From Sulfuricurvum sp. (GTDB lineage Bacteria; Campylobacterota; Campylobacteria; Campylobacterales; Sulfurimonadaceae): a stretch of DNA of 64,000 nt. The DNA is taken from the NCBI GenBank assembly GCA_028710885.1, contig JAQTTG010000006.1, positions 62,001-126,000 of the forward strand, read 5' to 3'. Positions 41,501-61,945 of the stretch are shown piece by piece (position 1 is the first letter of the stretch; the number at the start of each line of letters is the position of its first letter). The translations under genes and the position numbers were made by a program. Below the pieces are notes generated by a model. That model made no database searches. It had not been told where the DNA came from and saw only the letters and a program-made list of their open reading frames with translations.

Positions 41501-41629
41501 CTTAAGAATTGATTTTTTAATGAATTTTGAAAGTTGATTTTGATAATTGCTTTAAAAGTAAATGCTACTGGATTATTTCTAAATTTGAAATGAAATGATA
41601 TGACTTAAAATCATGAGCAAAACTGATCA

Positions 41630-44131
41630 TCATTCTTTTTTTATTTGTTTTGTTTCACAAAGCTGTTTGATGGCTAATTCGATATCGCCATCCAACTTTT
41701 CAACGAGATTGAATAGTTCTACTTTTTCGGATTCTTCAGTAGTATATGTAAGATATTCCTCCATGGATACTTCCGTGGCATAGACGGCAGATTGTGTACC
41801 TCCCAGGCCTATCCAAACCTCTTTATACAAACGGTTTGGATTATTTGACAGATTGATGGAAAGTATCTGTGCTTTCTCCTTTTCTGTAAGTCCTAAAAGT
41901 GCCTGAATAGCATCAAATTTATTCATGTACTTACGTTGATCCAGGAGAATTTTACAGTCGGAATTATTGATGATGGATTCTTTGACAATGGGAGAAGCAA
42001 TGATATCTTCCACTTCCTGCGTTACGACAATGGCTTCGCCGAAATACTTACGAACCGTTTTAAAAAGGTATTTGATATATTCTGCCATGCCTTCTTTGGC
42101 AATTGCCTTCCAGGCTTCTTCAATCAGGATGACCTTTCTTATTCCTTTCAGTCGTCTCATCTTATTGATAAAGACTTCCATGATAATGATGGTAACAATG
42201 GGAAATAAAATGGGATGATCCTTGATGTTGTCCAGTTCAAAAACGATAAATCGCTTTGAAAGTAAATCAATTTGTTTGTCGGAATTTAGTAAGTAATCAT
42301 ATTCCCCGCCTCTGTAATACGGTTCGAGCACATTCAGAAAGTTGGCAATGTCAAAATCTTTTTCCCGTACTTTCTTCCCATTCAACACCTCATGGTAATC
42401 TGTTCTTATATACTCATAGAAGCTATTGAAACTAGGGGATAATTCCCGTGATTTAATTTTGTCGATGTACAAACTTACTGCATTGGAAAGAGCCACCTCT
42501 TCAGCACGGGTCGGAGGTTCATCGTCTCTTTTCCATAAAGTCAGAATCAATGTTTTGATACTTTCACGCTTTTCAATATCATATACGCCATCTTCGGTAA
42601 AGAAAGGGTTGAACGCTATTGGATTTTGTTCTGAGTAGGTAAAATAAACGCCATCTTCACCCCGGGTCTTGCGATGGATCATCTCACAAAGTCCCAGGTA
42701 ACTATTGCCGGTATCGATTAACAGGACATGCGAACCTTGTTCGTAATACTGCCTTACCATGTGATTCGTAAAAAACGATTTTCCGCTGCCTGATGGTCCC
42801 AATATAAATTTGTTCCGGTTAGTGATAATCCCTTTTTTCATAGGCAAATCCGAAATATCCACATGGATTGGTTTCCCTGTCAGTCTATCCACCATTTTTA
42901 TCCCAAAAGGAGAAACAGAACTTTTGTAATTTGTTTCTTCGGTGAAAAAGCAAATGCCCTGTTCAATGAACGTATAAAAACTCTCTTCTGCCGGAAAGTC
43001 CGCTTGATTGCCCGGAATGCCAGCCCAAAATAGCGTTGGGGTATCCACGGTGTTATGCCTGGGTTTACATTCCATAAGTGCTAATTGACAGCCCACATCA
43101 TTTTTGATGTGTTTAAGTTCTTCCCGGTTATCACTCCATGCCATCACGTTACAATGGCAACGAATAGAGGTAAGTCCATAACTGTGGGCTTCGTTCAGGT
43201 ACTTATCAATCCACTCTTTATTGATTTGATTGCTCCTGCTGTACTTTGATAAAGAATGCATATTACGCCCCATTTTCTCAAATTTTTGTAGGTTCTCGAC
43301 ACTATCATCAATGAATAGGTATTGATTGTAAATGTGGTTACAAGAAAGTAGCAACCCAACCGGAGAAGCAAACGACAACCGGCAATCGGAACGGTCGGTG
43401 GATAGTTTCTCGTATCGGATATCTGTTCCCACGCTGGCAGGCAGATCATCCACATCCGACAGGGTATGCAAGCAAAGAATATTATCACCAATGCACATCT
43501 CTTCTGCTTTGAGCGTAATATCTTTGAGTGTAGTGGTATTTTCCTGAGACAGCGAAAAGTATTTTTCAACAATTCCGGCTTTGGATTCAGAACCTACAAT
43601 CTCATCAGTGGTTAGTCGGGTAAGGGTAATGAATCCGCCATCGTTGATAATCCGTTCAAATTGTCCCACAGCTTCCAGAAATCTTTCAACAATTTCCTTG
43701 TCTCGAAACTCTTTGGGGATAATAGAGCCCCGGCACAAAGTCGAAAAGTTACTCTGCATCCGGGAACGTTCCTTGGTAGTCTTAGTCAAAAAAAGGTAAC
43801 AGGTATGATTCAGGTAAGGACGTTCATTGAAATGACGTTCAAAACTTCGGGAGTGATAACTCATTTCTTCCTGTTTGATTTCCGGCTTGTATTGTTCCTT
43901 GATATACCAATCCTGTTTGTGCAGGATGCAATAATCAGGAAGCACCTTTACTGCCTTTGTCCAGGAAGAATGAATGGCTTCATATTCCTTACCGGTAACC
44001 GTAAAGAGTTCGGGCAGTTCCACTTTAAAAGCAACCGTTATATCGGCGTCCTTTGAAATGATGCAACCCATTTCTACTCCCCAAATCGGGAATTTACTTT
44101 CAAGCATTGCTGCTTTTAATATGTTTCTCAT
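41630..44131 (-). CDS. traG: Conjugative transfer ATPase TraG (VirB4-like)
   Basis: 833 residues. Walker A is FILGPSGSGKSFFTNHM (about residue 445); Walker B is KVILIEEAWKAIAKEGM, followed by YFGEAIVVTQEVEDIIASPI and NSDCKILLDQRKYMNKF. This is the TraG/VirB4 secretion ATPase that powers pilus/channel assembly at the inner membrane. Length is as expected (800-840). Its start overlaps the traF stop by 4 bases, indicating translational coupling. Confidence 0.93.
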   Translation of the reverse strand: MRNILKAAMLESKFPIWGVEMGCIISKDADITVAFKVELPELFTVTGKEYEAIHSSWTKAVKVLPDYCILHKQDWYIKEQYKPEIKQEEMSYHSRSFERHFNERPYLNHTCYLFLTKTTKERSRMQSNFSTLCRGSIIPKEFRDKEIVERFLEAVGQFERIINDGGFITLTRLTTDEIVGSESKAGIVEKYFSLSQENTTTLKDITLKAEEMCIGDNILCLHTLSDVDDLPASVGTDIRYEKLSTDRSDCRLSFASPVGLLLSCNHIYNQYLFIDDSVENLQKFEKMGRNMHSLSKYSRSNQINKEWIDKYLNEAHSYGLTSIRCHCNVMAWSDNREELKHIKNDVGCQLALMECKPRHNTVDTPTLFWAGIPGNQADFPAEESFYTFIEQGICFFTEETNYKSSVSPFGIKMVDRLTGKPIHVDISDLPMKKGIITNRNKFILGPSGSGKSFFTNHMVRQYYEQGSHVLLIDTGNSYLGLCEMIHRKTRGEDGVYFTYSEQNPIAFNPFFTEDGVYDIEKRESIKTLILTLWKRDDEPPTRAEEVALSNAVSLYIDKIKSRELSPSFNSFYEYIRTDYHEVLNGKKVREKDFDIANFLNVLEPYYRGGEYDYLLNSDKQIDLLSKRFIVFELDNIKDHPILFPIVTIIIMEVFINKMRRLKGIRKVILIEEAWKAIAKEGMAEYIKYLFKTVRKYFGEAIVVTQEVEDIIASPIVKESIINNSDCKILLDQRKYMNKFDAIQALLGLTEKEKAQILSINLSNNPNRLYKEVWIGLGGTQSAVYATEVSMEEYLTYTTEESEKVELFNLVEKLDGDIELAIKQLCETKQIKKE

Positions 44132-44457
44132 ACTTCTTTTTGATGAATGTGTTTGAATAATCGGGGAAATCTTTTACGGTTAAGCAGGTACTTCGGATGA
44201 TTCCTGACAGCACTCAGCTTCATAAGTCCATATTCACCGTATTTATGATTCAGTGCAAAAGTTTGCCAGACAAGTACAGATGAAGCGATAACACCAAAGC
44301 CAATACAGAACCATTGACCGATTCCAGTCATATACAGAATCACGAACAGGACAAAGATGGTGAGTAGTCCGCCTGCAAAAAGGAAGAGGTACTGGCTTTT
44401 CAGTCCTTTGAACTCCACCGATTTGCCAATACCTCTATTAATTGGATAATCTGCCAT
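44128..44457 (-). CDS. traF: Conjugative transfer protein TraF (DUF4133)
   Basis: 109 residues with two membrane helices. INRGIGKSVEFKGLKSQYLF, LFVILYMTGIGQWFCIGFGV and KYGEYGLMKLSAVRNHPKYL are DUF4133 hallmarks (VirB3-like). Operonic between traE (4 base gap) and traG. Confidence 0.88.
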   Translation of the reverse strand: MADYPINRGIGKSVEFKGLKSQYLFLFAGGLLTIFVLFVILYMTGIGQWFCIGFGVIASSVLVWQTFALNHKYGEYGLMKLSAVRNHPKYLLNRKRFPRLFKHIHQKEV

Positions 44458-44461
44458 TGAC

Positions 44462-44764
44462 TTACAAGAAAAAGGAACGTAAAACGGTAGCTGCTACAAT
44501 CAGAAAGATACAGGCTCCAAACCATGATGCCGCTGTTTTGCTGGTGTCCGGGTCACCCGAAGAAAACTTACTGTATACCTTCACACCACCTATCAAGCCG
44601 ATAACGGCACCTATGGCATAAATCAATTTAGTAGCCGGTTCGAAATAAGATGTAACCATGGTGGTAGCCTCAGTGATGCCTCCGGAACCATTCCCTTGCG
44701 CCCGAAGAGAAGCATAGGCAGTTAGTATGCAAACTGCTGTTAGAAATACTTTTTTGTTAGTCAT
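44462..44764 (-). CDS. traE: Conjugative transfer protein TraE (DUF4134, VirB2-like)
   Basis: I choose the Met at 44764 (MTNKKVFLTAVCILTAYASL), which begins a signal peptide; an upstream Met at 44812 would add 16 residues without support. The mature part has EATTMVTSYFEPATKLIYAI, GAVIGLIGGVKVYSKFSSGD and KTAASWFGACIFLIVAATVL, the DUF4134 pilin-like two-helix design. Confidence 0.87.
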   Translation of the reverse strand: MTNKKVFLTAVCILTAYASLRAQGNGSGGITEATTMVTSYFEPATKLIYAIGAVIGLIGGVKVYSKFSSGDPDTSKTAASWFGACIFLIVAATVLRSFFL

Positions 44765-44891
44765 AATATATTTTTTAAAATTATCAGTAATCGAAATGGA
44801 TTTAAACACCATAAATAAGTGTTTTTAGATTGCTTTTAAGTGAGTTTAATTACCATTAGCCATATTTGATTTTCTTCATGATGTTAGCTTA

Positions 44892-45581
44892 TTATATAAA
44901 ATTGTTTATCTCGAATTGCTGAAAGTCACCATCGTGACTTTCGGGATTCATTGCGTTTGTCTCATTAGAATTTATATTGTACTTATTCAACATCTCTGTT
45001 ACCCGTTCTTTGCCTCCAGAAATTTGTGAAACCATAAGATGAAATAGCTCGGTTTGTTCCATCTGTTGAAACGTTTTCATTGCAATGAGTTCTGCTTCTT
45101 GTGAAGACCCGCTTTGCTTCATTACCTGAACAAGATTTTCCATTTCATCATATTGAATACCTGTGGCTGGTCCGGTAATTTCATCTTCCACAAAGCAATT
45201 CAAATCTTCTTCCTCCAACAAATCGTCTTCATTGTATTCAGATTCTATGTCCAAATCCATGGATTCGGGAGAGTCGGAAAATACGCTGTCCAATTCGCTA
45301 TTTTCGACCACTGGCGACCTTGTATTTCCATTGGACTCAGCAAATGTAGTGGCGTTATCAATCGGTTTTTCAATCTGTCTCAGGCTGTCATCGTTTGTCA
45401 CAACATGGCTTAATTGAGTTTTCGTTTTACCCATTATATCGTCATCGTCTGCAAAAATTGGAGTTATATTGGGTGGTAATTTTACTTTCGGATAGAATAA
45501 CTTTTTTATTCGCTGATGTTGAAGATAAAGCAGTACCCAAATGAGGTATAAGAGAATGGATATTAATACTATATTTGTCAT
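44892..45581 (-). CDS. traD: Conjugative transposon protein TraD-like
   Basis: 229 residues: one N-terminal membrane helix (NIVLISILLYLIWVLLYLQH), then a very acidic linker (DLDIESEYNEDDLLEEEDLN) and a helical C-terminus (QEAELIAMKTFQQMEQTELF, VTEMLNKYNI). Position, membrane anchor and acidity fit TraD of the Bacteroidota set. Its ATG shares one base with the stop of the DUF3408 gene (TAATG), so translation is coupled. Confidence 0.65.
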   Translation of the reverse strand: MTNIVLISILLYLIWVLLYLQHQRIKKLFYPKVKLPPNITPIFADDDDIMGKTKTQLSHVVTNDDSLRQIEKPIDNATTFAESNGNTRSPVVENSELDSVFSDSPESMDLDIESEYNEDDLLEEEDLNCFVEDEITGPATGIQYDEMENLVQVMKQSGSSQEAELIAMKTFQQMEQTELFHLMVSQISGGKERVTEMLNKYNINSNETNAMNPESHDGDFQQFEINNFI

Positions 45582-46000
45582 TACGATATGGGTTTTTTGA
45601 ATTTGTTTTCATATAGATTGTTGATTTCATCTTTGTGACTTTCAAGATGGTGGAGGATGATATTTTCCACATAGCTGCTAATGTTAACTTTATGGCCTCC
45701 AATAACATTGACGATACTTAAAAGGGTCAAATGGGTCTCTCTTGTAATGTAAAGGCTTTGACGATCTGTAAGATCTACCTTTTCAAAATAGGTCTCCCGA
45801 TAATCCGTTTGCTCTGTTCGTTTTCGCTTTTGGGGTTCCTTGATTTTAGTAGTTTCGATTACAGGTTCATCTTCTTTGATAATAGTTGAGAATTCTTTTT
45901 CTTTTTCATTCAAGATTTCCTTTTTCATAGGAAAACCTTGTGAAATGACTTCTCTCATAAAATTCTCATCCACTTTTGGGATAGTTGTTTGTTTTGCCAT
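45581..46000 (-). CDS. DUF3408 protein (TraB/TraC-type)
   Basis: 139 residues. Disordered basic N-terminus, then YFEKVDLTDRQSLYITRETH, LTLLSIVNVIGGHKVNISSY and VENIILHHLESHKDEINNLY, the DUF3408 C-domain, which looks like a small ribbon-helix-helix DNA-binding fold and is normally encoded right after traA. Starts 5 bases past the traA stop. A role with the ParA-like TraA in DNA handling is likely but unproven. Confidence 0.82.
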   Translation of the reverse strand: MAKQTTIPKVDENFMREVISQGFPMKKEILNEKEKEFSTIIKEDEPVIETTKIKEPQKRKRTEQTDYRETYFEKVDLTDRQSLYITRETHLTLLSIVNVIGGHKVNISSYVENIILHHLESHKDEINNLYENKFKKPIS

Positions 46001-46005
46001 AATGT

Positions 46006-46767
46006 TTATAACTTAATGATGTGAGCTATTTCAATTAATAGTTCTTCCAGATTACTCCCTTTAATCATTTTCCTATCGGTAGGAAACAGGGTGGAACGAA
46101 ATACAGGTTTCCGATTTCCGGATAACTCCTTATTGTATCTTTTGGTGTCAGGGATAAAGGTGCGAAGCAGCGGAATACCGAATGCATGGATGGATTTTTC
46201 GTAGATGTCATACAAATCGGTCTTTTCACGTCCATCCACCTGATTCCAAAAGAGATGAAGTTCTTTCAGACGCAAGGATGCATTACTGACCAATAGCTCA
46301 TTGATTGAAAGTGCGAATGATAGGCAACTTTCCAAAACCAACCGATCTGCAATAATGGGCGTAAAAATGTAATCCATGTTGGCAAGCGATTGTAACACCC
46401 CCGCACTATTTACTGTCCCGGGCAGGTCGAAAAACACTACATCAAATTCCATTTCCGTAGAGGCTAAAAAGCTGTTGGCTGAAGCGATAGCATCCTCAGG
46501 CGAACTGCAAATAATCGGATAGGCCTTTTTATTCAATTGCTTGAACTGATTATAGGCTATCAGCTTGTAATAGTCATCCGTTTCCACTTGTTGTGTATCC
46601 CGTTTGCGCATGGCATTGATGCTGTATTGCGGATAATCACAATCCAACACCGCTACATTATAACCTTTGAGGTAATGCAGATAACTCGCCGCTAAAACGG
46701 TAAAGGTCGTTTTGCCAACTCCACCCTTTTGTGTAGAAAAGGCGACAAACAATGTTTCTTTCTTCAT
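46006..46767 (-). CDS. traA: ParA-family ATPase TraA
   Basis: About 253 residues from the Met at 46767 (MKKETLFVAFSTQKGGVGKT); an upstream Met at 46776 is also possible. Deviant Walker A KGGVGKTTFTVLAASYLHYL, Walker A' VLDCDYPQYS, and Walker B VVFFDLPGTVNS are those of ParA/MinD ATPases. First gene of the leftward tra operon in CTnDOT-like elements. The upstream side faces a dense repeat array (46851-47067) that could be its target. Confidence 0.92.
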   Translation of the reverse strand: MKKETLFVAFSTQKGGVGKTTFTVLAASYLHYLKGYNVAVLDCDYPQYSINAMRKRDTQQVETDDYYKLIAYNQFKQLNKKAYPIICSSPEDAIASANSFLASTEMEFDVVFFDLPGTVNSAGVLQSLANMDYIFTPIIADRLVLESCLSFALSINELLVSNASLRLKELHLFWNQVDGREKTDLYDIYEKSIHAFGIPLLRTFIPDTKRYNKELSGNRKPVFRSTLFPTDRKMIKGSNLEELLIEIAHIIKL

Positions 46768-46850
46768 TTCAATCATTTTTTAAGTTTTTAATTCTGGGTT
46801 GTATTATTGCTATACCTCATTCCTGAATTCAAGAATGTATGTTTACAAGT

Positions 46851-47499: not shown

Positions 47500-47976
47500 A
47501 TGAATACAGAAGATAATAAATTGCATCGCAAAACCAAAGCAGGAAGGAATCAAAAGAGTGATCCAGCCATATTTCGTTACTCCATAAGTTTCAATGCAGT
47601 GGAAAATACTGCATTTTTAGGTCGCTTTGATGAGTCTGGAATGAAGGTAAAAGCACATTTTATCACCGCTTGCATCTTCGATAAACCTATTCGGGTAGTC
47701 AAACTGGATAAGGCGGCTATGGATTATTATATGAGATTGACAACCTTTCACTCACAGTTCCGTGCCATTGGGGTCAATTATAATCAGGCAGTGAAGTCTA
47801 TTAAATTTGCTTTTGAAGAGAAAAAGGCCCTTTACTATTTGGCAAGATTGGAGAAGGCAACCCTTGAACTGGTCGTATTGAATCGTCAGATTATTGACTT
47901 GACACAAAAACTTGAAGTAAAAATATACGGTTCCGCAGATGCAGAATCAGAAAAGACTGATACCAATTTGAAATGA
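47500..47976 (+). CDS. mobA: Relaxosome protein MobA
   Basis: 158 residues. Basic N-terminus (KLHRKTKAGRNQKSDPAIFR), then YSISFNAVENTAFLGRFDES and a region FHSQFRAIGVNYNQAVKSIK typical of MobA/BfmA-type DNA-binding accessory proteins of Bacteroides transposons. It binds oriT and helps load the relaxase. Ten bases upstream of mobB on the same strand. Confidence 0.82.
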   Translation: MNTEDNKLHRKTKAGRNQKSDPAIFRYSISFNAVENTAFLGRFDESGMKVKAHFITACIFDKPIRVVKLDKAAMDYYMRLTTFHSQFRAIGVNYNQAVKSIKFAFEEKKALYYLARLEKATLELVVLNRQIIDLTQKLEVKIYGSADAESEKTDTNLK

Positions 47977-47985
47977 TAAACAAAA

Positions 47986-49236
47986 ATGGTTGCGAAGATA
48001 AGTTCGGGTAACTCCATTTTTGGAGCATTGGTCTATAATCAAACCAAGGTAGATGAGCAAAAAGGGAAAGTAATTCTTACCAACCGGATGATAGAACCCC
48101 GGGATGGGAACTATACGATAGGTGGTTGCATGCGTTCCTTTGACCCTTATCTGACAGCAAATCAAAAGACGGAAAGTCCGATTCTGCATATTTCTTTGAA
48201 TCCAGACCCGAAAGATATTTTGACGGACGACCAATTATCGGAAATTGCGCAGGAGTATATGGAAAAACTGGGTTATGGCAACCAACCTTTTATCGTGTAC
48301 AAGCACGAGGATATTGATCGTCATCACCTCCACATTGTTTCGGTTCGCGTAGACGAGAACGGGAAGAAGTTGGATCACAATTTTGAATACCGTAAATCCA
48401 TGGAGATTTGCCGGCATCTTGAACAAAAGTTTCATTTGATACCGGCTGATAAGAAAGAAAAACAACCAGTGACCCCAATCAAAGCGATACAATATGGCGA
48501 TGAAAATTTGAAAAGTCAAATAGCGAGTGTCATTCGTCCGATTGTGAAATCCTATTATTTTCAGACTATGGGAGAATATAAAGCCTTGTTGTCATTGTAT
48601 AATATTACGGTTGAAGAAATCAAAGGTGGTACAGCCGATAAAATATTTAACGGTTTGGTTTATTCGGCAATAAATGACAAAGGAGAACGGATTGGTAAAT
48701 CGTTTAAGTCGTCTCTTTTTGGAAAAACGGTTGGATATGAAGCGTTGCAACAACGAATGGCTCAATCCGGAGAAATTATTAAGCAAAAACAGTTGAAAGA
48801 AAGAACCAGAGCTATAGTTACCAAAGCAATGAAATTACCTTTAAATCGAGCTGACTTTGAAAAACAACTATCCGCTAATAATATAAATGTAGTGTTCCGA
48901 TATAATGATGCCAATCGTATCTATGGAGTAACATTTATCGATCATCAAAATAAATGTGTACTTAACGGTTCCCGTTTGGGCAAAGAGTTCTCGGCAAACG
49001 TTTTTAATGAGCTTTTTACCTCATCTAAAGAGAGTAATGGCAATCAATCACAGCAACACACTAATAACCATATTGGACACGCTGACGAGCCTAAAATCAA
49101 GTCTCAACATAATACCGAAAATTTTGATGATTCTCTCAATTTATTCAGTATGGAGACCAACGGAGGTATTGATTCTGAGGAAGAAGCTTTTATCCGTCGG
49201 ATGAAAAAGAAGAAAAAGCGGAAGAAACCTATCTGA
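47986..49236 (+). CDS. mobB: Relaxase MobB
   Basis: 416 residues. The relaxase His motif is VYKHEDIDRHHLHIVSVRVD (H107, D109, H113/H114, H116), preceded by LHISLNPDPKDILTDDQLSE and the N-terminal nucleophile region MVAKISSGNSIFGALVYNQT (a Tyr at 18). PF03432-type relaxase that nicks oriT and pilots the strand. The C-terminus is polar and very basic (RRMKKKKKRKKP). Followed by the coupling protein mobC. Confidence 0.9.
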   Translation: MVAKISSGNSIFGALVYNQTKVDEQKGKVILTNRMIEPRDGNYTIGGCMRSFDPYLTANQKTESPILHISLNPDPKDILTDDQLSEIAQEYMEKLGYGNQPFIVYKHEDIDRHHLHIVSVRVDENGKKLDHNFEYRKSMEICRHLEQKFHLIPADKKEKQPVTPIKAIQYGDENLKSQIASVIRPIVKSYYFQTMGEYKALLSLYNITVEEIKGGTADKIFNGLVYSAINDKGERIGKSFKSSLFGKTVGYEALQQRMAQSGEIIKQKQLKERTRAIVTKAMKLPLNRADFEKQLSANNINVVFRYNDANRIYGVTFIDHQNKCVLNGSRLGKEFSANVFNELFTSSKESNGNQSQQHTNNHIGHADEPKIKSQHNTENFDDSLNLFSMETNGGIDSEEEAFIRRMKKKKKRKKPI

Positions 49237-49323: not shown

Positions 49324-51327
49324 ATGCAACAAGAAGATGATTTAAGAGGCTTGGCAAAAGTCATGGAATTTATGCGAGCCATCAGTATACTATTCGTACT
49401 GATAAATATCTACTGGTACTGTTATGAAGCTTTCCAACAGTGGAATCTAACCATTGAAACATTGAACAAAATACTGCTGGGTTTTCAACGAACGTCTGGA
49501 TTATTCTCCTCTATCATTTGGACAAAGTTGTTCGCAGTGGTTTTTCTGGCTTTGTCATGCCTGGGCACCAAAGGCGTAAAAGAAGAGAAAATATCATGGA
49601 CAAAAATCACAATTCTCCTAATTATTGGAAGCCAGTTGTTTTTTCTGAATTGGTGGATACTTTCTTTGCCTCTACCTATACTGGCAAACGTGGCTTTTTA
49701 TATTTCAACCTTGACCATTGGGTATATTTGTATGATGATGGCCGGTTTGTATATGAGCCGTCTTTTGAAGAATAGTATGATGGACGATGTGTTCAACAAC
49801 GAGAATGAAAGCTTTATGCAGGAAACCCGTTTAATGGAGAATGAATATTCCGTCAACCTGCCTACTAAGTTTTGGTATAAAAAGAAACAGTGGGATGGTT
49901 GGATCAACATTGTCAATCCTTTCCGAGCCACTATCGTGTTGGGTACACCCGGTAGCGGTAAATCGTATGCTGTAGTCAATAATTATATTAAACAGCAAAT
50001 TGAAAAAGGCTTTGCAATGTATATCTATGATTTTAAGTTCGACGATTTATCGACTATTGCTTATAACCATTTGCTAAAACATCGTGACAAGTACAAAGTG
50101 GCTCCCAAGTTTTATGTCATTAATTTCGATAATCCGAGAAAAAGTCACCGCTGTAATCCAATTAACCCAACATTTATGACAGATATCAGTGACGCCTATG
50201 AAAGTGCTTATACCATTATGCTTAACCTGAATCGCAGTTGGATACAAAAACAAGGTGATTTCTTTGTGGAATCGCCGATTATTCTGTTAGCCGCTATAAT
50301 TTGGTATTTGAAAATCTATAAGGATGGAAAGTATTGCACTTTTCCCCATGCCATTGAATTTCTGAATAAAAAATATTCCGATACTTTTACGATTCTTACT
50401 TCTTATACCGACCTTGAGAATTACCTTTCACCGTTTATGGATGCCTGGGAGGGAGGAGCACAAGACCAGTTACAAGGACAAATTGCATCCGCTAAGATTC
50501 CGTTGTCCCGTATGATTTCACCACAACTCTATTGGGTAATGACCGGTGATGATTTTACCCTCGACATCAATAATCCCGAAGCACCCAAAATTCTTTGTGT
50601 TGGTAATAATCCCGATCGCCAGAGTATTTATTCGGCAGCACTAGGATTGTACAATAGCCGTATTGTAAAACTTATCAATAAGAAAGGGCAACTCAAAAGC
50701 TCGGTTATCATTGATGAATTACCGACCATCTATTTTCGTGGATTGGATAACCTGATTGCCACCGCTCGTAGTAATAAAGTTGCTGTATGCTTGGGATTTC
50801 AGGACTACAGCCAATTGAATCGGGATTATGGAGATAAGGAAGCGAAAGTAATTCAAAATACGGTTGGAAATATATTCAGCGGACAAGTGGTGGGAGAGAC
50901 AGCTAAAAACCTATCTGATCGTTTCGGTAAAGTTTTACAATTGCGCCAATCCATGACTATCAATCGTCAAGATAAATCTACATCCATCAGTACTCAACTA
51001 GATAGCCTTATTCCTGCTTCAAAGATAAGCAACTTGACTCAAGGAGTTTTTGTGGGAGCAGTTTCCGATAATTTTGAGGAACGCATCGAGCAAAAGATTT
51101 TTCATGCTGAAATAGTGGTAGATAATGCCAAAGTAGCAGCCGAAACCAAAGCTTATAAAATGATACCCGAAATAGCATCCTTTGTTGATAGAGATGGTAA
51201 CGATAACATGAAACATGAAATTGACAAAAACTACAATCGAATCAAACAAGAAGTTGCCCAAATTATTGTGGACGAGATGGAACGAATTAGAAATAATCCG
51301 GAATTGAGCCATTTGGTGAAGAAATGA
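49324..51327 (+). CDS. mobC: Type IV coupling protein MobC (VirD4/TraG-like)
   Basis: 667 residues with four or so N-terminal membrane helices (to about residue 150), then Walker A VLGTPGSGKSYAVVNN (about 205-220) and Walker B SSVIIDELPTIYFRGLDN. VCLGFQDYSQLNRDYG and GNIFSGQVVGETAKNLSDRF complete the VirD4-like motor domain. It docks the relaxosome to the TraG/J/K/M/N channel. Length is normal. A stretch of about 315 bases follows before the defence island. Confidence 0.92.
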   Translation: MQQEDDLRGLAKVMEFMRAISILFVLINIYWYCYEAFQQWNLTIETLNKILLGFQRTSGLFSSIIWTKLFAVVFLALSCLGTKGVKEEKISWTKITILLIIGSQLFFLNWWILSLPLPILANVAFYISTLTIGYICMMMAGLYMSRLLKNSMMDDVFNNENESFMQETRLMENEYSVNLPTKFWYKKKQWDGWINIVNPFRATIVLGTPGSGKSYAVVNNYIKQQIEKGFAMYIYDFKFDDLSTIAYNHLLKHRDKYKVAPKFYVINFDNPRKSHRCNPINPTFMTDISDAYESAYTIMLNLNRSWIQKQGDFFVESPIILLAAIIWYLKIYKDGKYCTFPHAIEFLNKKYSDTFTILTSYTDLENYLSPFMDAWEGGAQDQLQGQIASAKIPLSRMISPQLYWVMTGDDFTLDINNPEAPKILCVGNNPDRQSIYSAALGLYNSRIVKLINKKGQLKSSVIIDELPTIYFRGLDNLIATARSNKVAVCLGFQDYSQLNRDYGDKEAKVIQNTVGNIFSGQVVGETAKNLSDRFGKVLQLRQSMTINRQDKSTSISTQLDSLIPASKISNLTQGVFVGAVSDNFEERIEQKIFHAEIVVDNAKVAAETKAYKMIPEIASFVDRDGNDNMKHEIDKNYNRIKQEVAQIIVDEMERIRNNPELSHLVKK

Positions 51328-51642: not shown

Positions 51643-54600
51643 TCAAATAAACAACCTGTAATCATACGTTTTTCCTTCAAAACGAGCTAATAATTTTCCT
51701 ATTCTCGCAATCTGATTCGAAGAATTTATAGTTGCAGGTAATTTAGTGTATAAGTCAAATGAATTCCAATTCATTTTTGTGAGTCCAAGTATTTCAGTTG
51801 CTATGAGATTAATATTAGAATCCCCATGATGTTTTACAATTTTAAGTGGTGCCGGAATACTTCTTCCACCAAGATAATATCTATAATTTGCATCTCTTAC
51901 AGATGGAACAATCCCATGTGTCCAGAGTAATGCAGTTGTATTATTTGTAACGATACAGGTTCCTCTTGAAATTGGAAAACGATCAATTTGCATTTCATTA
52001 CGAAAAATGCTGGTTGCTACAAATCTGGCATCAGGCTCATAATTTATTTCTATTAAATCTATTTTTTTTATTCCAGCCATTTTTAGACTTTCTGTTATAC
52101 CCTTAATTTCATCATTTGTAAATCTTGTTCTTTTGTGTATTACAACTCTTTTGGGAAGTTTATCCATGGAATTGTAAAAGAGTTCTCTAATTGAAACTCC
52201 AAATTGAAAGGCGTCATCATATGATAAAAAAGGATTTGCTTGTTTGTCTAAGTAAAAATTATCAACTTTCGATAATTTGTATTTTAAACCCTGACCTTCG
52301 GAATTGTAAATATGACTACAGCCAATAACAATATCTGTTTGATTTGCCTTATGGTTAATGCTATATCCAATTCCTGCATACGCAGTATCTTTTTCTGTAT
52401 TATTTAAAACCCATGGAGTTCTTAGAGATTTCACATAAAATGATAATGATAACCACCAGAATATCTGACATCTTAAATTATCAGAAAGAGTATCTTGTCT
52501 AATTAGTTGTGTTGAAACCCCTTTTGATGCTGAAAATGCTTTTATATAATCATGTAAATCGAATATTTCGCCATCCTCGTCATATGATTCATAAGCTTGC
52601 CATTCATCAGGTATAAATATTACAATTGTATGCTGATTCTGACTATTAGCAAGATGGTCAATTTTTGCTGTAATTAATCTAGCCAACTTTAAAGCAATAT
52701 CTTTTATTTCTCCTTTAGAATGATCAATTTCAATATCAAGCCATTTGTATGAGTCATTAATCAATGGTATATTGATTGGTATATTATAAGCAGAGGCAAA
52801 ACCAGGATAATCTATAAGATAGTCTGGATTGACATTTGATATATGCTTTTGATTTAAAGCATTTAAAAAGTTGAAAAGCTCATTGGAGTATTTCTGGCTA
52901 CAAATTATGCTCAAATTTATTTCATTTGAGTATAGAGTGCCATTTAATGGGAAATCAAAAGGCCTATGATTAGTAAGGGCTCTCATTGGGTGAAAATCCT
53001 TAGTTTGATTAAATGAGTTATTGTGAGTGAAAATTAGTTGAGGCTCTAGTAATTGAACCCCTTTGTGTAATGTGAAATCTTTATTATAGGATGTTGGATG
53101 ATAAGCACGGAAATTGGTATCTGCGACCATTATTTCGGCAAAAGCAGTATTTTGAGAAATAGAGAATTCGAATCCAGTACCAGATTTAGTGGGATATTCA
53201 AATACTAATTTTTTCCCATTAAATAAAATACTTTTCCAATCCTCTAGAGTCCTATCATATTGATTGTTGAAGAGTTTTTCTAGCGATACTTTACTCAAAC
53301 TCTGTTTTATTTCTTTTGATATATCTGATTGACTAGTCAAATGTACACTTGGCTTAAATGTCAAAAATGCATATTTGCTTCGATAATCAAAGAAAAGAGA
53401 TAAATAAATTGATTTGTGAATTTCAACCGTTTGTGAATTTTGAGTTATTGAATTATAACTTTTTGTAAGCCATATTTCATCTTTTTCATTTGTTTGAATT
53501 AATTCATTCTTTGATAAGGTTTTTAATACAGCTTGAAGCATTAATGATTTAAAAGCAGTAACAATTTCAATATCAAATTTAGAAATAGGGACACGAATTA
53601 TTTCACCCTTAATTTTATTGCCAAAAACATTGTTAATTGAAGATAAAGTTCCTAAGGCAAATACTTTTTGTTTAAATGGGACAGCACAAATGTCATTAGC
53701 TTTTGTGAGTTCTCTTAATGTCGACCATGGTTTTTCCCCACTATACTCAAATTCAAATTGAAAAACCTCTTTTGGGAAACTTATGGGATGCAAATTACTC
53801 TTAATATATTTGTCTGTCCTCGTTATCTCTTGAGTGAAATTTGTCATCTCTAATTCTAAGGTTTGAGATGATGACAATATTTCATTTATCCTTTCTAAAG
53901 ATGTTTCATCATCTTCAAAACAAGACTTTGTTAAATGTAATAATGTTTTATCAAAACCATCAGTTGGTATAAAAAATGCTTCTCGACCACTATTCCGAGT
54001 AGTTTCAATAAGTTGTTTTACTTCTTCGTCAATCTCATGTCCATACCCACACCAATAAAGTCTTACTGAACCCTTTTTACTAAATGCTTCTGAGATAGCA
54101 CACATTAAAGACCTATCTCTGCCACTATAACCAATAACAATCAAATTCTTATCACAATGGTATCTGGTTAATGCTTCAACAAAGACATCTTCCTGTGAGT
54201 CTAATTCACTTTGAGTATTCTTCAAAGTGCTATATTTATAGTCTCCATGAAGTGAAATTGATAATAGTTCTTTTTTACTCTGATTTCTGTATATTCTCTC
54301 TACACTATCTAAGGTTATTTCGATAGGAGTTAAATTTGCTTGGTGAGCTGATTTTACAACTAACCCATCAAAATTGGTAGACCAAACTGCTTTTACAATT
54401 TCATTTTCACACAGTAAGCATAAAAGTTTATAACCTATATACGGATCAATACCTTCTATAAGGGATTGAAAGTATTTTCTTCTATCATCCGCAATTGGAT
54501 ACGCTTTTTCTGCATAATATGAATATTCTTCATTTGAATTGAATTTAGGATGAATACCTTCGTTATCAAGCCAATTCTGTATACTCAATCTAACAGACTC

Positions 54601-54807
54601 ATTTTTAGTATTTTTATAATAGTCCGATGCGTTGGGATTTTTTGATAAATAAATATCTTTTTTCCATTCCCAGATACAATCATTTGCCGATTGAATGCCA
54701 GAACTGATTGATGCACCAGCACCAATTAAAAGAGAGTGGGGAATGTCTTTATTTCTTTTTATTGATCTTAAAAATGCATCATATTCTAAAATTATTTCTT
54801 TATCCAT
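51643..54807 (-). CDS. Single-chain SIR2-APAZ-short prokaryotic Argonaute (SPARSA-type)
   Basis: 1054 residues in four parts. Residues ~1-290 are a SIR2 NADase: LLIGAGASISSG, STNFDGLVV (N145, D147), SLHGDY (H187) and VIGYSGRDRSL. Residues ~320-640 are an APAZ-like, N-domain region. Residues ~640-800 form MID, with IPDEWQAYESYDEDG and ASKGVSTQLIRQDTL (guide 5' end pocket). Residues ~800-1054 are PIWI, where the first catalytic Asp is missing (YAGIGYSIN), so it cannot slice. Known mechanism of the family: guide-directed detection of invading DNA activates the SIR2 domain, which depletes NAD+ and kills or arrests the cell. The fused layout is less common than the two-gene one. All SIR2 catalytic residues are present, so it should be functional. 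Confidence 0.88.
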   Translation of the reverse strand: MDKEIILEYDAFLRSIKRNKDIPHSLLIGAGASISSGIQSANDCIWEWKKDIYLSKNPNASDYYKNTKNESVRLSIQNWLDNEGIHPKFNSNEEYSYYAEKAYPIADDRRKYFQSLIEGIDPYIGYKLLCLLCENEIVKAVWSTNFDGLVVKSAHQANLTPIEITLDSVERIYRNQSKKELLSISLHGDYKYSTLKNTQSELDSQEDVFVEALTRYHCDKNLIVIGYSGRDRSLMCAISEAFSKKGSVRLYWCGYGHEIDEEVKQLIETTRNSGREAFFIPTDGFDKTLLHLTKSCFEDDETSLERINEILSSSQTLELEMTNFTQEITRTDKYIKSNLHPISFPKEVFQFEFEYSGEKPWSTLRELTKANDICAVPFKQKVFALGTLSSINNVFGNKIKGEIIRVPISKFDIEIVTAFKSLMLQAVLKTLSKNELIQTNEKDEIWLTKSYNSITQNSQTVEIHKSIYLSLFFDYRSKYAFLTFKPSVHLTSQSDISKEIKQSLSKVSLEKLFNNQYDRTLEDWKSILFNGKKLVFEYPTKSGTGFEFSISQNTAFAEIMVADTNFRAYHPTSYNKDFTLHKGVQLLEPQLIFTHNNSFNQTKDFHPMRALTNHRPFDFPLNGTLYSNEINLSIICSQKYSNELFNFLNALNQKHISNVNPDYLIDYPGFASAYNIPINIPLINDSYKWLDIEIDHSKGEIKDIALKLARLITAKIDHLANSQNQHTIVIFIPDEWQAYESYDEDGEIFDLHDYIKAFSASKGVSTQLIRQDTLSDNLRCQIFWWLSLSFYVKSLRTPWVLNNTEKDTAYAGIGYSINHKANQTDIVIGCSHIYNSEGQGLKYKLSKVDNFYLDKQANPFLSYDDAFQFGVSIRELFYNSMDKLPKRVVIHKRTRFTNDEIKGITESLKMAGIKKIDLIEINYEPDARFVATSIFRNEMQIDRFPISRGTCIVTNNTTALLWTHGIVPSVRDANYRYYLGGRSIPAPLKIVKHHGDSNINLIATEILGLTKMNWNSFDLYTKLPATINSSNQIARIGKLLARFEGKTYDYRLFI

Positions 54808-55560: not shown

Positions 55561-56596
55561 ACCTGAGTTCGGGATAAGGAAATGACATAAAAAGTTGTAA
55601 TATAGAAGTTTATTTTGTATCTTTGTGATTGACAGTCAAACAAATAACAAAATAAAACTCCTATGATTACAACAGACAAAATTATAGAAATATTCTGTAT
55701 TGCAGATGATTTTTACAAAGAATATGAGTCAGAAGTCCAAAAAGTTGCTATTTGTACCTCCAGCGAGGTGAAAACACGCAATAGGGCTACTCAATTATCA
55801 CCAAGTGAGATCATAACTATTTTAGTATGTTTCCACTTTGGTACGTTTAGAAATTTCAAACATTACTATCTGTTTTTCATCAGAGAACACCTTAATGGAG
55901 ATTTCCCAAATGCAGTTTCTTACAATCGCTTTGTCGAATTAGAAGCTCGTGTATTTGTTCCATTGATGATGTATTTACAGCTTATTTGTTTTGGTGAATG
56001 TACCGGCATAACTTATGTTGACTCAAGCTCAATAAGGGTCTGTAACAACAAAAGAATTAATCGAAACAAAGTATTCCAAGGAATTGCTGAAAGAGGAAAA
56101 TCAACCATGGGTTGGTTCTACGGATTCAAACTTCATTTAGTTTGTAATGAAAAAGGAGAACTTCTAAACTTCTCATTGACAAAAGGTAACGTTGACGATA
56201 GAAATCAAGAGGTGCTGAGTGTTCTTACAAAAGATCTGTTTGGAAAACTATTTGCAGACAAAGGATATATATCACAAAAACTCTTTGAAGCGCTCTTCAA
56301 TGATGGTGTGCATTTGGTTACAGGGATAAAGAGTAACATGAAAAACAGCTTAATGTCAGTAAGAGATAAAATCCTTTTAAGAAAACGATCTGTTATTGAA
56401 ACCATAAACGATGAACTCAAAAACATATGTCATGTTGAGCATAGCAGACACAGATCAACTCATAACTTTATTATGAATATCATATCTGCACTTGTGGCAT
56501 ATTGCTTTTTCCCTAAGAAACCATCAATCAATGTTGAATGGGATAATTCTGGACAATTAGCTCTCAATTTCTAAAATTCTTAACCCGAACTCAGGT
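55561..56596 (+). mobile_element. IS982-family insertion sequence, complete
   Basis: 1036 bp bounded by inverted repeats: ACCTGAGTTCGGGATAAG at 55561 and, read inward from 56596, ACCTGAGTTCGGGTTAAG. It is flanked by direct repeats TTTTA at 55556-55560 and 56597-56601, a 5 bp target duplication. It inserted into the DUF6088 gene. It has one intact transposase gene, so it may be active. Confidence 0.92.
55663..56574 (+). CDS. IS982-family transposase
   Basis: 303 residues: MITTDKIIEIFCIADDFYKE is the usual IS982 start. Catalytic residues are D120 (GITYVDSSSIRVC), D199 (KLFADKGYISQ) and E246 (RSVIETINDELKN). QLSPSEIITILVCFHFGTFR and GWFYGFKLHLVCNEKGE are family hallmarks. Fills most of the element and is complete, ending 22 bases from the right inverted repeat end. 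Confidence 0.95.
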   Translation: MITTDKIIEIFCIADDFYKEYESEVQKVAICTSSEVKTRNRATQLSPSEIITILVCFHFGTFRNFKHYYLFFIREHLNGDFPNAVSYNRFVELEARVFVPLMMYLQLICFGECTGITYVDSSSIRVCNNKRINRNKVFQGIAERGKSTMGWFYGFKLHLVCNEKGELLNFSLTKGNVDDRNQEVLSVLTKDLFGKLFADKGYISQKLFEALFNDGVHLVTGIKSNMKNSLMSVRDKILLRKRSVIETINDELKNICHVEHSRHRSTHNFIMNIISALVAYCFFPKKPSINVEWDNSGQLALNF

Positions 56597-57068
56597 TTTT
56601 AATGCTGCAATTGCAAAACCACTTACTTTTCCTTTCATCGATAAATTTTTTGGTGCAGTTTTCTTAAACTTGATAAAACGGTTTCCGTATTTTATCTTAC
56701 GCGGAATACCATCTGTCAGGTAAACCACATTAACCGGTATTTGAGTTGACAGACCCAAACTATGAAGTGCAAATACTCCAGTAGGTTCAATCCTTGCTTT
56801 ATCTCTTTTGGCTATAGCCTTGCATACATCATCAACAGATGGATACAGAATACCAAATTCGGCATCAATTTTTGGGTACAGATAAATTCCTTGAGTTAAA
56901 CGTACAAGTGTACCTCTTTTTACCAATACAGAAAGGCTCTTCCTGATTGATTCAGAACTGCCAATAGAAGAAAAATCATCGAGAAAATATATTTTACCCT
57001 TTGCCCTGTATTTTAGGAACTCTATTGTTTTATTATCAGTTGATTGAGTCATAATAATTTGAGTTATA

Positions 57069-57371: not shown

Positions 57372-58433
57372 TTAGCTTTCAACATTATAATAAATTTTGT
57401 AATACTTTCTGCCTTCGTTGTCAGTTCCCTGTTCAATCATTTCTCTGTCACCATGAATATAAATATGGAAGTTCTTATCTAGTTTGATTACACTTTTTAT
57501 TGTACGAGCTTGTTTTTTTACAGCCGACTCTGAAATAGTGAATTTCTCCATAATAGCTAATTCGCGCGCAAACTCATAATCCGATTTATATTGATTGAAA
57601 GTTTCAATTACTTCCGGCTTACCAATAACTTCCATGGCAAAAGTAGCCATATCAAAGTTTTCATTTTTTTTGAAATACTCCACCGACTTATTCAGAAAAT
57701 CTACCTGATCGGCTTTTGAAATATCTGTTTGTTCTGAAAGTTCTTCTGTTACAAAGTTCTTACAAAGCAAGAGTACATTTTGAGTGTTATAAAATTCGTC
57801 TTTGCGAGGTTTTATATGCAAGAAATCATCAATCCAGTATTTTGCTTCGACATCTTTATTGGTGTTATCAACCACCGAAACTAAATAACCATTTTCCTTC
57901 TCAATATTAAATATCAAGCAGCCTTTGTCCAATTTATTGAGATTAATTCCTTTATCACACTCAATTTTATAACTATCATCATTTGGATATACTTTTAAAA
58001 AGGTATCTTTATTTTCCGATTTAAACATGCCTATAGCATCTGTGGTAATACCATTAACAATACAGTTTTTAAATGAAACAATGTATAATTCCCCATCTTT
58101 AATTTTAGGATGAGTGCTTTGATCATAAAGATGTTTTGCAAGGGCTTGAGAAACCTCGATAAAATTATTTTTCTCGTTAAAAAGACTATCAATAAAATTA
58201 TAAACAGGATTTAAGTTTATATCATATGTGAAATATAGTTGAAAAAATTCTTCAAACTTGAATGCTTTTTGCACTTGCGCTATAAAATAGCTTTCTATAT
58301 CATTAAATACTGAGGTCTTGTTAGAAAACCGGATTCCACTTCCATTAGACTTATTGCCTATACCATGAATAACTAATTTATCTATAGCCTTAATCGATAC
58401 TATCATTTTCTTCTGTGTTTTTTGATAAAACAT
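57372..58433 (-). CDS. NdpA/YejK-type nucleoid-associated protein
   Basis: 353 residues from the first Met (58433), or 344 from the Met at 58406 (MIVSIKAIDKLVIHGIGN), which overlaps the ABC gene by 17 bases rather than 44. FFQLYFTYDINLNPVYNFID, ALAKHLYDQSTHPKIKDGEL, YIVSFKNCIVNGITTDAIGM and FKSENKDTFLKVYPND are the PF04245 nucleoid-associated family pattern. Family members bind DNA and nucleoid, but their role in defence loci is not established. Last gene of the four-gene operon; the tight overlap suggests it works with the ABC ATPase. Confidence 0.72.
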   Translation of the reverse strand: MFYQKTQKKMIVSIKAIDKLVIHGIGNKSNGSGIRFSNKTSVFNDIESYFIAQVQKAFKFEEFFQLYFTYDINLNPVYNFIDSLFNEKNNFIEVSQALAKHLYDQSTHPKIKDGELYIVSFKNCIVNGITTDAIGMFKSENKDTFLKVYPNDDSYKIECDKGINLNKLDKGCLIFNIEKENGYLVSVVDNTNKDVEAKYWIDDFLHIKPRKDEFYNTQNVLLLCKNFVTEELSEQTDISKADQVDFLNKSVEYFKKNENFDMATFAMEVIGKPEVIETFNQYKSDYEFARELAIMEKFTISESAVKKQARTIKSVIKLDKNFHIYIHGDREMIEQGTDNEGRKYYKIYYNVES

Positions 58434-60270
58434 ATTGTGGTATTAATCCATTACCATTAATAAACTCATCTACTGTATGGAAATATTCTAAGTCATTATC
58501 CTCCCAATAATCTTTTGGAGCATGTTCAACCATAAATATCTGGAATTCACTTTTAAGATCATTTATTACATACGATAAAAAAGAATTTAAAAGCTTAAAC
58601 GCATCTATTAATTTCTCTTGATCATCAGTTTTTACCTTGTCTCCCCCAGAAAAATAAGGGAAGCTTGGTTGATCTATAAATAAAAATTGTGGAACATGTT
58701 TATGATTGTTTTTTATCAAATACTCATGCAGTCCTAAATAAAAACATAAATGTAAAAACATATAGTTGGAAGAACTTCCTATATCTTCAGATTCAAATAA
58801 TTCTCTAGGATTTTTTAACTTTAAAACCATCTCATCGATATCAAATCTAATTGTATGATTTTTATAATTTGGCATCGAATTGATTAAGCTATATATTCTT
58901 TGAATAGATTTATTTAGTTCTTCATTTAAAACATATTTATTTTTATCGATATCATAAAATTGCAAGTCTAATTTTTCAAGTTCTTCCTTCAAATTCGCTA
59001 ACAATTCTTTTTGAGGAGAATCTAATTTTAATCGATTTTTCTCATTGTTTGTTAACTTGTTTTGAAGATTTCCAATAAAAATATATTTAGCAGCTTCACT
59101 TGTGAAAATTGATTTTATTTTAGGTAGACTCTTAATTTCAATATCAATTTGCTTTAATCTCTCATTTAAACTTGTCAATTCTGTTTGATATTTATAAAAT
59201 TTGAAATCCGTTTTTTTGTACCCAATTTTTATTTCTTTCAATGAATCTTCTAATGAATTAATAAATAAATGGATGCTTCGAGAAGGAATAATCTCACTGA
59301 AATTATTTGCTAAATATTCTATCGGTTTAAGACTATCAGCATATTTGTTCAAATTTTTGTGATAAATATCTACTTCATTTTTGAAGTTTTCAATGGCATT
59401 TGTTTTTTTTATAAGATTCCTTTTCTCTTTGTTAAGACTATCAATCTGTTTAAATATCTTCTCATTATTTGCCAATACAATGTAATCTTTGACTATTTGA
59501 TTTAATGCATTATATGCTTCAATATATGTACTATATTCAAAATCGACATTTAGCAAATTATATTCCTTACATTCTGTGATTAGTTGGGCTAATTCATAAT
59601 CCAAGCTCTTTTTTTTTGCTGTTTCAGTGTTAATCTTATTTGCTAACTTATTAATCTGTTGCTCAATAGGTCTCCTTTTTTCTTCAATTAAAATATTTTG
59701 TATTTTATCAATCCCAGTACTTATATAGAATATGTGTTTAAGGTCCTCATCTGTAGTTATTTCATAGAAAGACTTGTCAAAATAATTGTTTGAAGTAATA
59801 ATTATATCAGCTGATATTGATGTTAATACTAGAAATTCTCTGTAACTTAATTTTTGAGGATTTTTTATTGTCGGATATTCAATTTTAGGGATAGAGAATT
59901 CTTTGTTAAGAACTTCTTTTAATTGGAATATACTAATGTTTGCAACTGGAAGTGTTGGATAGATACCTCTATCTGAAAAATACACTTCTGCGGATACTTC
60001 GCCCGCTTCTGGTGATTTTCTTGCAATAATGAAATTCTTATCATTTATAAAAAAATTAATGCAATACCATGATACATTTTCATTAATTATTGATTGAACA
60101 ATTCTATTCTTTTTAGACAAAAGACAATAATCAATTATTTTTAGAAAACTAGTTTTGCCTTTTGTAGCATCACCTGTAATGACATTAATTTTATTAGGTT
60201 TTAATTCATAACTTTTAGGTTCTGAATCATTCTTGAACCAAAGTTTAATTTCATGTATATAATATCTCAT
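58390..60270 (-). CDS. ABC-3C system ABC ATPase (DUF3732-like)
   Basis: 626 residues, SMC-like layout. Walker A GDATKGKT (33-40); long coiled coil from about 195 to 460 (EQQINKLANKINTETAKKKS and EELEKLDLQFYDIDKNKYVL); ABC signature region IGSSSNYMFLHL (497-508); Walker B QFLFIDQPSFPY (528-539), where the usual catalytic Glu is Gln; H-loop His583 (FMVEHAPKDYW). D-Q-P-S replaced for D-E-P is shared by DUF3732/ABC-3C ATPases. Role inferred: senses foreign DNA or nucleoprotein and controls the nuclease partner. It overlaps the middle component gene by 4 bases. Confidence 0.85.
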   Translation of the reverse strand: MRYYIHEIKLWFKNDSEPKSYELKPNKINVITGDATKGKTSFLKIIDYCLLSKKNRIVQSIINENVSWYCINFFINDKNFIIARKSPEAGEVSAEVYFSDRGIYPTLPVANISIFQLKEVLNKEFSIPKIEYPTIKNPQKLSYREFLVLTSISADIIITSNNYFDKSFYEITTDEDLKHIFYISTGIDKIQNILIEEKRRPIEQQINKLANKINTETAKKKSLDYELAQLITECKEYNLLNVDFEYSTYIEAYNALNQIVKDYIVLANNEKIFKQIDSLNKEKRNLIKKTNAIENFKNEVDIYHKNLNKYADSLKPIEYLANNFSEIIPSRSIHLFINSLEDSLKEIKIGYKKTDFKFYKYQTELTSLNERLKQIDIEIKSLPKIKSIFTSEAAKYIFIGNLQNKLTNNEKNRLKLDSPQKELLANLKEELEKLDLQFYDIDKNKYVLNEELNKSIQRIYSLINSMPNYKNHTIRFDIDEMVLKLKNPRELFESEDIGSSSNYMFLHLCFYLGLHEYLIKNNHKHVPQFLFIDQPSFPYFSGGDKVKTDDQEKLIDAFKLLNSFLSYVINDLKSEFQIFMVEHAPKDYWEDNDLEYFHTVDEFINGNGLIPQYVLSKNTEENDSID

Positions 60271-60716
60271 ATTTGAACTTTTAAATTTTTATATAGCAAG
60301 TCTGTGCTTTGCATTCCTAACAAAACTGAAAAATTTAGAATTACACTTACGATTTTATTTGCTCTAATTCCAAAATCATGATTAAAGTCAAACTTATTGT
60401 TTTCAATATATATAATCTTGTCGTTTAAAATTTTTATCGTTTTTGATTCATTTAAGATATTAATGGTATTTAGCGTTATTGGCAACAACTCTAAGTACCT
60501 TTCATTAAACCCGACTAATAGTTTTGCATTATCATCAAAAAAATCATCCATTGAATTATATGAATATGACAATTTTCTGACAATTCTATCATCTAGCAAT
60601 AGTGGCAGTACTATAAAAACCCTTGCGACATCTAATGATTTTACTATTTTCATTAAACCTGCAAATACTACTACAGATATTGCCTCATTATTATAAATAT
60701 AAAATTCCGAATTCAT
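60267..60716 (-). CDS. ABC-3C system middle component
   Basis: 149 residues, acidic, no membrane helix. It has YIYNNEAISVVVFAGLMKIV, FIVLPLLLDDRIVRKLSYSY and NERYLELLPITLNTINILNE, ending in an Ile/Val-rich helix. Its size, position between the CTD protein and the ABC ATPase, and 4 base overlaps on each side are those of the ABC-3C middle component (MC), an adaptor. Sequence of MCs is poorly conserved, so the call leans on context. Confidence 0.78.
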   Translation of the reverse strand: MNSEFYIYNNEAISVVVFAGLMKIVKSLDVARVFIVLPLLLDDRIVRKLSYSYNSMDDFFDDNAKLLVGFNERYLELLPITLNTINILNESKTIKILNDKIIYIENNKFDFNHDFGIRANKIVSVILNFSVLLGMQSTDLLYKNLKVQI

Positions 60717-61945
60717 TGCTTATATTTTTTTTCCCATTCATAATGCCATCCAATTCTAGGTTCATTTGATAGCAGATAATACTGACCATTACTAAAATCT
60801 GAACCTATTTCTATATTTTTTACTTTTAAAATATCTCTTCGTATTTCATCTATACAAGAATTTGCAACATCAATAATATCTGAGTCTTTATCTGTTTTAT
60901 TTAAGTAGGCATTTAATGTTATTTTATTTTTTATTTTTTTATAATTGGTAGTAAAAACAACTCTCCACCTTGCAAAAGCTTCTTCTTCCAATTTAATTTT
61001 ATCTTCTCTTGAAATAATGTGATCTTCATCTATCCAACTTCTAATATTGTTAACAAAACTCAACATCTTAGTTGTATAATCTATCATTTCATCATCAGTA
61101 AGCATTTCTCCTATTTCATTAAGTTGTTTAATGAAAATTTGAGATTCTAAATTTTCAGGATAAACTATAGGTAAGTTTCTTTTTGGGAGAGATGAAATAT
61201 CATATGCTAAATCAAAACAACTACTATATTTGGTGTTAAAATCTTCAAATGTTATTACAAATTTTTGTCTATTTGCAATTGTCAAAAATTTTTCTTTCTG
61301 AATAGTAGCATATAACGCATTATAAACTAAATCAATTTTGTTTTCCCTCCTGATTTGCTTATATAATCGCTTCTTAATTAAATCTATGATAAATTCTGGA
61401 TTAGAAATAATATCGATATTAGTTAGAAACTGTTTTTTTTGTTTGTCAACTAATTTATATAACTTTTCAATATGTTTTTTGATTTCACCATCTGTTGTTT
61501 CTAACAAATTCTTCAAATAGATATTAAATTCATTCATCTTAATTTCAGATTTTTGAAACTTTAATACGTTTTGAAGAAATGGATTTTGATCAATTGACTT
61601 ATTTGTAACTAACCTAAATTTAGTATTATCTAAAAAATCTACCTGGCCTTTTGAACCTTGAATAAATAAAATCCAATTATTTATTGTCTTCCAGAGGTCT
61701 ATATCTCGTTCTGTTAAATTGATAATGCTTCCGTCTGATTTCTTTTGAACAGTATGTTTTGTTTGGAGTAACTCTATTTTTCCATTTGGTAATTCGATAT
61801 GAATATCATCAAATACTTCAAATCCAATTTTCTCATTAGGACTTAAATCTAAAGTTAAGTAAAGAAAATAGTAGAATTGATAATCAAAACCGATTGCATT
61901 TGGTCCAGCCGTATGTTGTTCTTGTATTGTTTCTATATTATTCAT
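60713..61945 (-). CDS. ABC-3C nuclease + CTD protein (Cap4-like endonuclease domain)
   Basis: 410 residues. N-terminal PD-(D/E)xK-type domain similar to DUF4297/Cap4: NAIGFDYQFYYFLYLTLDL, GFEVFDDIHIEL (E43, D46, D47) and KIELLQTKHTV (E58, Q61, K63), the E-x-D...Q-x-K catalytic core. C-terminal ABC-3C CTD: AFARWRVVFTTNYKKI, then CIDEIRRDILKVKNI, SNGQYYLLSNEP and the terminal RIGWHYEWEKKYK. Inferred effector: cuts DNA when the ATPase and MC detect a threat. First gene of the operon; the promoter is 60 bases upstream. Confidence 0.82.
   Translation of the reverse strand: MNNIETIQEQHTAGPNAIGFDYQFYYFLYLTLDLSPNEKIGFEVFDDIHIELPNGKIELLQTKHTVQKKSDGSIINLTERDIDLWKTINNWILFIQGSKGQVDFLDNTKFRLVTNKSIDQNPFLQNVLKFQKSEIKMNEFNIYLKNLLETTDGEIKKHIEKLYKLVDKQKKQFLTNIDIISNPEFIIDLIKKRLYKQIRRENKIDLVYNALYATIQKEKFLTIANRQKFVITFEDFNTKYSSCFDLAYDISSLPKRNLPIVYPENLESQIFIKQLNEIGEMLTDDEMIDYTTKMLSFVNNIRSWIDEDHIISREDKIKLEEEAFARWRVVFTTNYKKIKNKITLNAYLNKTDKDSDIIDVANSCIDEIRRDILKVKNIEIGSDFSNGQYYLLSNEPRIGWHYEWEKKYKQ

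Follow-up and report, generated by a model that had tools for sequence, protein, structure and literature searches.

A 64,000-nucleotide stretch of DNA binned as Sulfuricurvum sp. (henceforth termed the window) encodes on its minus strand, at 51643-54807, a fused SIR2-APAZ-Argonaute protein of 1054 residues. This protein is very probably a single-chain SPARSA-type immune protein (clade S1A) that is carried as cargo of a CTnDOT-like integrative conjugative element and that, by analogy with studied relatives, would deplete NAD+ upon activation by guide and target. Fusions of SIR2-APAZ with pAgo have been known since 2009 (PMC2743648); a count of them followed in 2018 (PMC6299218), and they correspond to clade S1A in present usage (PMC11156904, PMC12205087); NAD(P)ase-APAZ proteins have also been described as fused to pAgo at times (PMC10810196). 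The novelty of the single-chain form that an earlier note on this DNA had hinted at is thus not borne out.

The reading frame occupies exactly 51643-54807 from ATG to stop, with 1054 codons and zero internal stops, in agreement with the single protein of 1054 residues described earlier. A chance artefact, a frameshift and a pseudogene were considered as readings of this gene, and all were rejected. Assignment to short Argonaute clade S1A is based on the reading frame, PADLOC, phmmer and a phylogenetic tree. The full-length pAgo model of PADLOC (PDLC02384) spans residues 5-1054 at 1525 bits, and the SIR2-PNTD1-PNTD2 model matches up to residue 558. In phmmer searches, residues 587-1053 resembled GsAgo (4.8e-51) and residues 26-294 GsSir2 (1.2e-24). 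Identity to these characterised proteins is about 20-25% (about 24% for MID-PIWI), and the closest relative is a Labilibacter protein at 80%. Sequence comparison and structural modelling support a protein that combines SIR2, APAZ and MID-PIWI in one chain, with a PIWI domain predicted to be inactive and an intact SIR2 dyad.

The N-terminal SIR2 NADase domain (residues about 1-310; 53878-54807, minus strand) was delineated by a Pfam SIR2_2 match at residues 140-260, by alignment with GsSir2 and by invariant residues. N145 (codon 54373-54375) and H187 (codon 54247-54249) align with N142 and H186 of GsSir2, a dyad that is required for NAD+ hydrolysis and in which alanine substitutions abolish NADase activity (PMC10781750). 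Across an alignment of 26 fused proteins, whose other members are 38-80% identical to the window protein, N145, H187, G226, G229, R230 and D231 are invariant and Y227 and S228 nearly so, which bears out the earlier claim of intact SIR2 residues (N145, H187 and the GYSGRD motif). The same residues bear on a reading in which the SIR2 domain serves another end than NAD+ depletion, such as nuclease activity or the synthesis of a signal molecule, with the Argonaute still acting as sensor. The original prediction for the SIR2 domain of pAgo fusions was indeed nuclease activity (PMC2743648, PMC6299218); however, the Asn/His dyad and the GYSGRD motif are held in common with GsSir2, which loses NADase activity on mutation, and their conservation makes this reading very unlikely.

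The APAZ domain (residues about 323-560; 53128-53841, minus strand) was recognised by a PADLOC model and a fold match, and MID-PIWI (residues 577-1054; 51646-53079, minus strand) by a fold match to 8jkz_B and an alignment with TtAgo. Residues 577-1054 align with short pAgo chains over their whole length and comprise MID and PIWI without PAZ. For TtAgo, we take the catalytic tetrad to be D478, E512, D546 and D660 and the guide pocket to be R418, K422, Q433 and K457; the tetrad letters were verified in the sequence, and the pocket letters were taken from the alignment. The tetrad positions are occupied by S816, P859, R893 and N1031 in the window protein. The earlier observation that the first catalytic Asp is missing from PIWI therefore stands (S816 at D478) but understates the loss, as all four tetrad residues are absent. 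The pocket for the 5'-phosphate of the guide is kept, with H752, K756, Q767 and K793 aligned to the four TtAgo pocket residues and invariant in fused proteins.

An AlphaFold2 model of the window protein was built from 26 sequences (pLDDT 79, pTM 0.61), with low-confidence PIWI stretches at 966-981 and 1015-1026. The top structure match for model residues 577-1054 was the SPARSA Argonaute 8jkz_B (Z 30.2, rmsd 3.0 A over 447 residues), and residues 323-1054 align with Piwi proteins; the assignment of the central and C-terminal parts to MID/PIWI thus survived the structure search. For residues 7-560, the top match was the SPARSA SIR2-APAZ chain 8y80_E (Z 30.3), with an rmsd of 12.9 A that reflects a fit of the individual domains rather than of their mutual placement. 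The packing of SIR2 against APAZ may therefore differ from that in SPARSA.

In a MID-PIWI tree of fused and two-gene short Argonautes, the window protein and 30 other fused sequences form one clade with support of 100/99. When the tree was rooted with a DUF4365/SMEK outgroup, two-gene SPARSA systems including GsAgo appeared as sister of the fused clade, with a thin two-gene sampling of four SIR2 rows against 31 fused rows. The window protein is a member of the recognised clade S1A (APAZ group Ia) and ordinary for its class: it shares the single-chain domain order, the inactive PIWI and the SIR2 domain and has no distinguishing feature of its own, while its gene sits in a conjugative element beside other defence genes. 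With SPARSA (GsSir2-APAZ/GsAgo, clade S1B), it has the domains, the SIR2 dyad, the guide pocket, the lost tetrad and the fold (Z 30) in common, whereas SPARSA consists of two proteins and belongs to a separate sister clade. SPARTA (TIR-APAZ/short pAgo) has the same Argonaute fold and presumably the same target-triggered NAD(P)+ loss, yet carries TIR in place of SIR2, and its Argonaute is more distant. In the literature that we searched, S1A is defined chiefly by phylogeny, the structural and biochemical work concerns two-gene relatives, and we found no biochemistry of any fused member.

SPARSA and SPARTA are activated by target DNA and form tetramers (PMC12205087). From such two-gene relatives we infer the type of guide and target, activation, NADase activity and protection for the fused protein. 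The MID pocket would hold a small 5'-phosphorylated guide, probably RNA, and the catalytically dead PIWI together with APAZ would close on complementary DNA of plasmid or phage origin. Recognition of this target would cause oligomerisation and unlock the SIR2 domain, NAD+ hydrolysis would stop growth or kill the cell, and spread of the invader would be blocked, with one fused chain taking the place of the SIR2-APAZ/Ago heterodimer. The earlier note suggested that the protein could guard its host against rival plasmids but would have to tolerate transfer of its own element. For an integrated element of low copy number, such tolerance poses no evident difficulty; an integrated single copy would presumably offer little target. 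A single-chain S1A member lends itself, by its simplicity, to studies of how SIR2 is opened on binding of a target.

The gene is surrounded by the backbone of a conjugative element, for which Pfam matches provided most assignments. An RteC regulator (32686-33534, plus strand) lies near the left end, followed by a CTnDOT-type tra operon (35574-46776, minus strand) that encodes a TraA-like ParA ATPase, a DUF3408 protein, TraG, TraI, TraJ, TraK, TraM, TraN/DUF4138, TraO and TraQ, with TraI and TraK assigned from their position and from DUF4141 or no Pfam match. A MobC-like protein and a MobA/VirD2 relaxase (47500-49236, plus strand) and a type IV coupling protein (T4CP; YWFCY/TraG-D; 49324-51327, plus strand) lead up to the convergent Argonaute gene. 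The backbone resumes past the cargo with a DUF4099/DUF3945 gene (62482-63861, plus strand) and continues past the window end with a topoisomerase, DUF1896, a methylase-helicase, a second RteC and helix-turn-helix genes. The C-terminus of a tyrosine integrase, a 57-aa frame above the Pfam cut-off (G000:C14:143036-143125), is interrupted by the contig end. Since backbone genes lie on either side, the Argonaute gene is located inside the conjugative element, as the earlier note had claimed. RteC, the Tra set, MobC/relaxase, T4CP, topoisomerase, methylase-helicase and tyrosine integrase are shared with CTnDOT-type elements, from which the window element differs by its cargo of a short Argonaute and Lamassu-like genes in the interval from T4CP to DUF4099. 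The contig stops inside the integrase, so that the right end of the element lies off the contig; in a search for att sites, one GTANNTTTGC was found at 33722 against 2.4 expected by chance. Bacteroidota promoter patterns occurred at chance level only.

Between the Argonaute gene and the remaining cargo lies an IS transposase (DDE_Tnp_1_3; 55663-56574, plus strand), followed by an AbiEi-type antitoxin gene (DUF6088 by Pfam, AbiEi by PADLOC; 56591-57052, minus strand) without an adjacent AbiEii. This orphan AbiEi beside the transposase may be what is left of an AbiE pair. The two flanking genes, together with a GC content of 0.29 in the cargo versus 0.377 in the tra region, are what one might expect if the Argonaute gene were passive cargo whose activity or expression had been lost. 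All 1054 codons are open, however, and every family-invariant residue is kept, and we consider such decay improbable, marginally more so than a SIR2 domain without a role in NAD+ depletion. The cargo further contains genes of a Lamassu-like/ABC-three-component type, LmuA, LmuC and LmuB, followed by a gene for NA37, a 37-kD nucleoid-associated protein (57372-61945, minus strand). PADLOC matched LmuB at 5.4e-75, LmuA at 2.8e-48 and LmuC at 4e-4, and Pfam identified MC3, DUF3732 and NA37. The start of NA37 overlaps the end of lmuB, and with a GC content of about 0.26 the stretch is strongly AT-rich; NA37 may represent an additional component. More defence cargo was observed past the window, between the helix-turn-helix genes and the integrase (L032:12377-16638), where an AbiEi/AbiEii pair accompanies an OLD-like TOPRIM protein with a weak GajA match.

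The contig is probably mis-binned Bacteroidota DNA. Its left part encodes SusD proteins, a SusC-like TonB receptor, GH67, GH3 and GH92 enzymes and a Por secretion tail, which are typical of Bacteroidota, and its tetranucleotide composition is somewhat closer to Labilibacter (0.92-0.96) than to other contigs of the bin (0.78-0.95). For a gene outside the element (28097-30940), congeners gave only partial matches of about 30%. The RpoB of the bin (1381-1382 aa, contig C20) scored best against proteobacterial-type RpoB and is not of Bacteroidota origin: it groups with its own genus and order, apart from six Bacteroidota, in a tree in which the Rhizobium and G039 rows were disregarded owing to a wrong frame, with the split between Bacteroidota and bin unaffected. 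A very large transfer into the organism of the bin would provide a much less likely explanation than mis-binning. Genus-level comparisons for the window are unreliable for this reason, and the absence of the Argonaute from 36 of 36 congeners and of T4CP from 40 of 40 searched is uninformative, as the contig is seemingly not of that genus. Likewise, no empty element or cargo hotspot was demonstrable in searches at genus, order and phylum level.

Linkage to conjugative elements recurs among relatives. Of 23 other genomes with a fused gene, 6 carry TraG (PF19044) no more than 25 kb away on the same contig and 7 no more than 40 kb away; uniform placement, a null that is generous to the linkage claim, predicts 0.48 and 0.76, respectively. 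The layout of the window, with T4CP, convergent Argonaute and DUF4099, is repeated in Phocaeicola sartorii. In Empedobacter brevis (L009:9567-13186), the tra operon is interrupted between traD and traE by an Xre-type regulator and the fused Argonaute, both oriented like the tra genes, an arrangement by which this copy could be tied to transfer. Empedobacter and the window differ in insertion site and share 81% identity in T4CP but 51% in the Argonaute, as would be expected from separate captures. The Argonaute of Bacteroidetes 43-16 lies between RteC and TraG; in Flavobacterium Root186, Parapedobacter, Mucilaginibacter and F. agrisoli it is linked, with inclusion within an element only putative. 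A tree-based count on incomplete contigs gave 7 changes for 8 linked rows. The pattern suggests independent captures of the fused gene by conjugative elements.

Such carriage offers a natural setting in which to ask whether these proteins protect the host against phages or the element against rival elements. With the same NADase mechanism, the gene might serve the element, through stabilisation or a superinfection block against related elements, instead of general phage defence. The TraG excess, the recurrent T4CP-side site in Phocaeicola and the copy with an Xre-type regulator within the tra operon of Empedobacter are all in line with this possibility. Against it, TraG is absent from the surrounding 40 kb of the contig for 16 of the 23 fused genes, and several adjoin other defence-like genes. 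Mobile elements tend to accumulate defence genes of any kind, so that the excess alone is no proof of function or of a special tie and may reflect only this tendency. We regard service to the element as unlikely, if clearly more plausible than the two alternatives discussed above. To the same doubtful degree, single-chain SPARSA could be a weapon that conjugative elements of Bacteroidota have acquired repeatedly and independently, at the T4CP side or in the tra operon, and that serves competition between elements. Our literature search found no report of Argonautes carried by Bacteroides conjugative elements; the repeated linkage of the class to such transposons is only mildly new.

Beyond these elements, plasmid and phage collections lacked a close fused relative. 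The best plasmid matches were two-gene SPARSA (<32%), and among phages one 7.3-kb human faecal contig matched residues 1-617 at 49%. Contigs classed as viral likewise carry fused SIR2-APAZ-Ago genes: besides phage record MT837260.1, seven loci (L065-L071) encode the protein, L071 with only the last 586 residues. Prophage carriage was unsupported at L070, where ten ORFs had mostly no or unknown PHROGs besides one DNA methyltransferase and one endolysin-like match, and at L065 and L067, whose flanks gave defence-like Pfam matches or none. A scan of genomes recovered 28 loci, mostly full-length fusions and chiefly from Bacteroidota; Rhizobium, Paenibacillus, Lentisphaeria and Caldilineaceae contributed one case each. 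The Caldilineaceae copy (L027:1505-4704) consists of two open frames of 615 and 441 aa with a break within the MID region, representing either a frameshift or a natural split.
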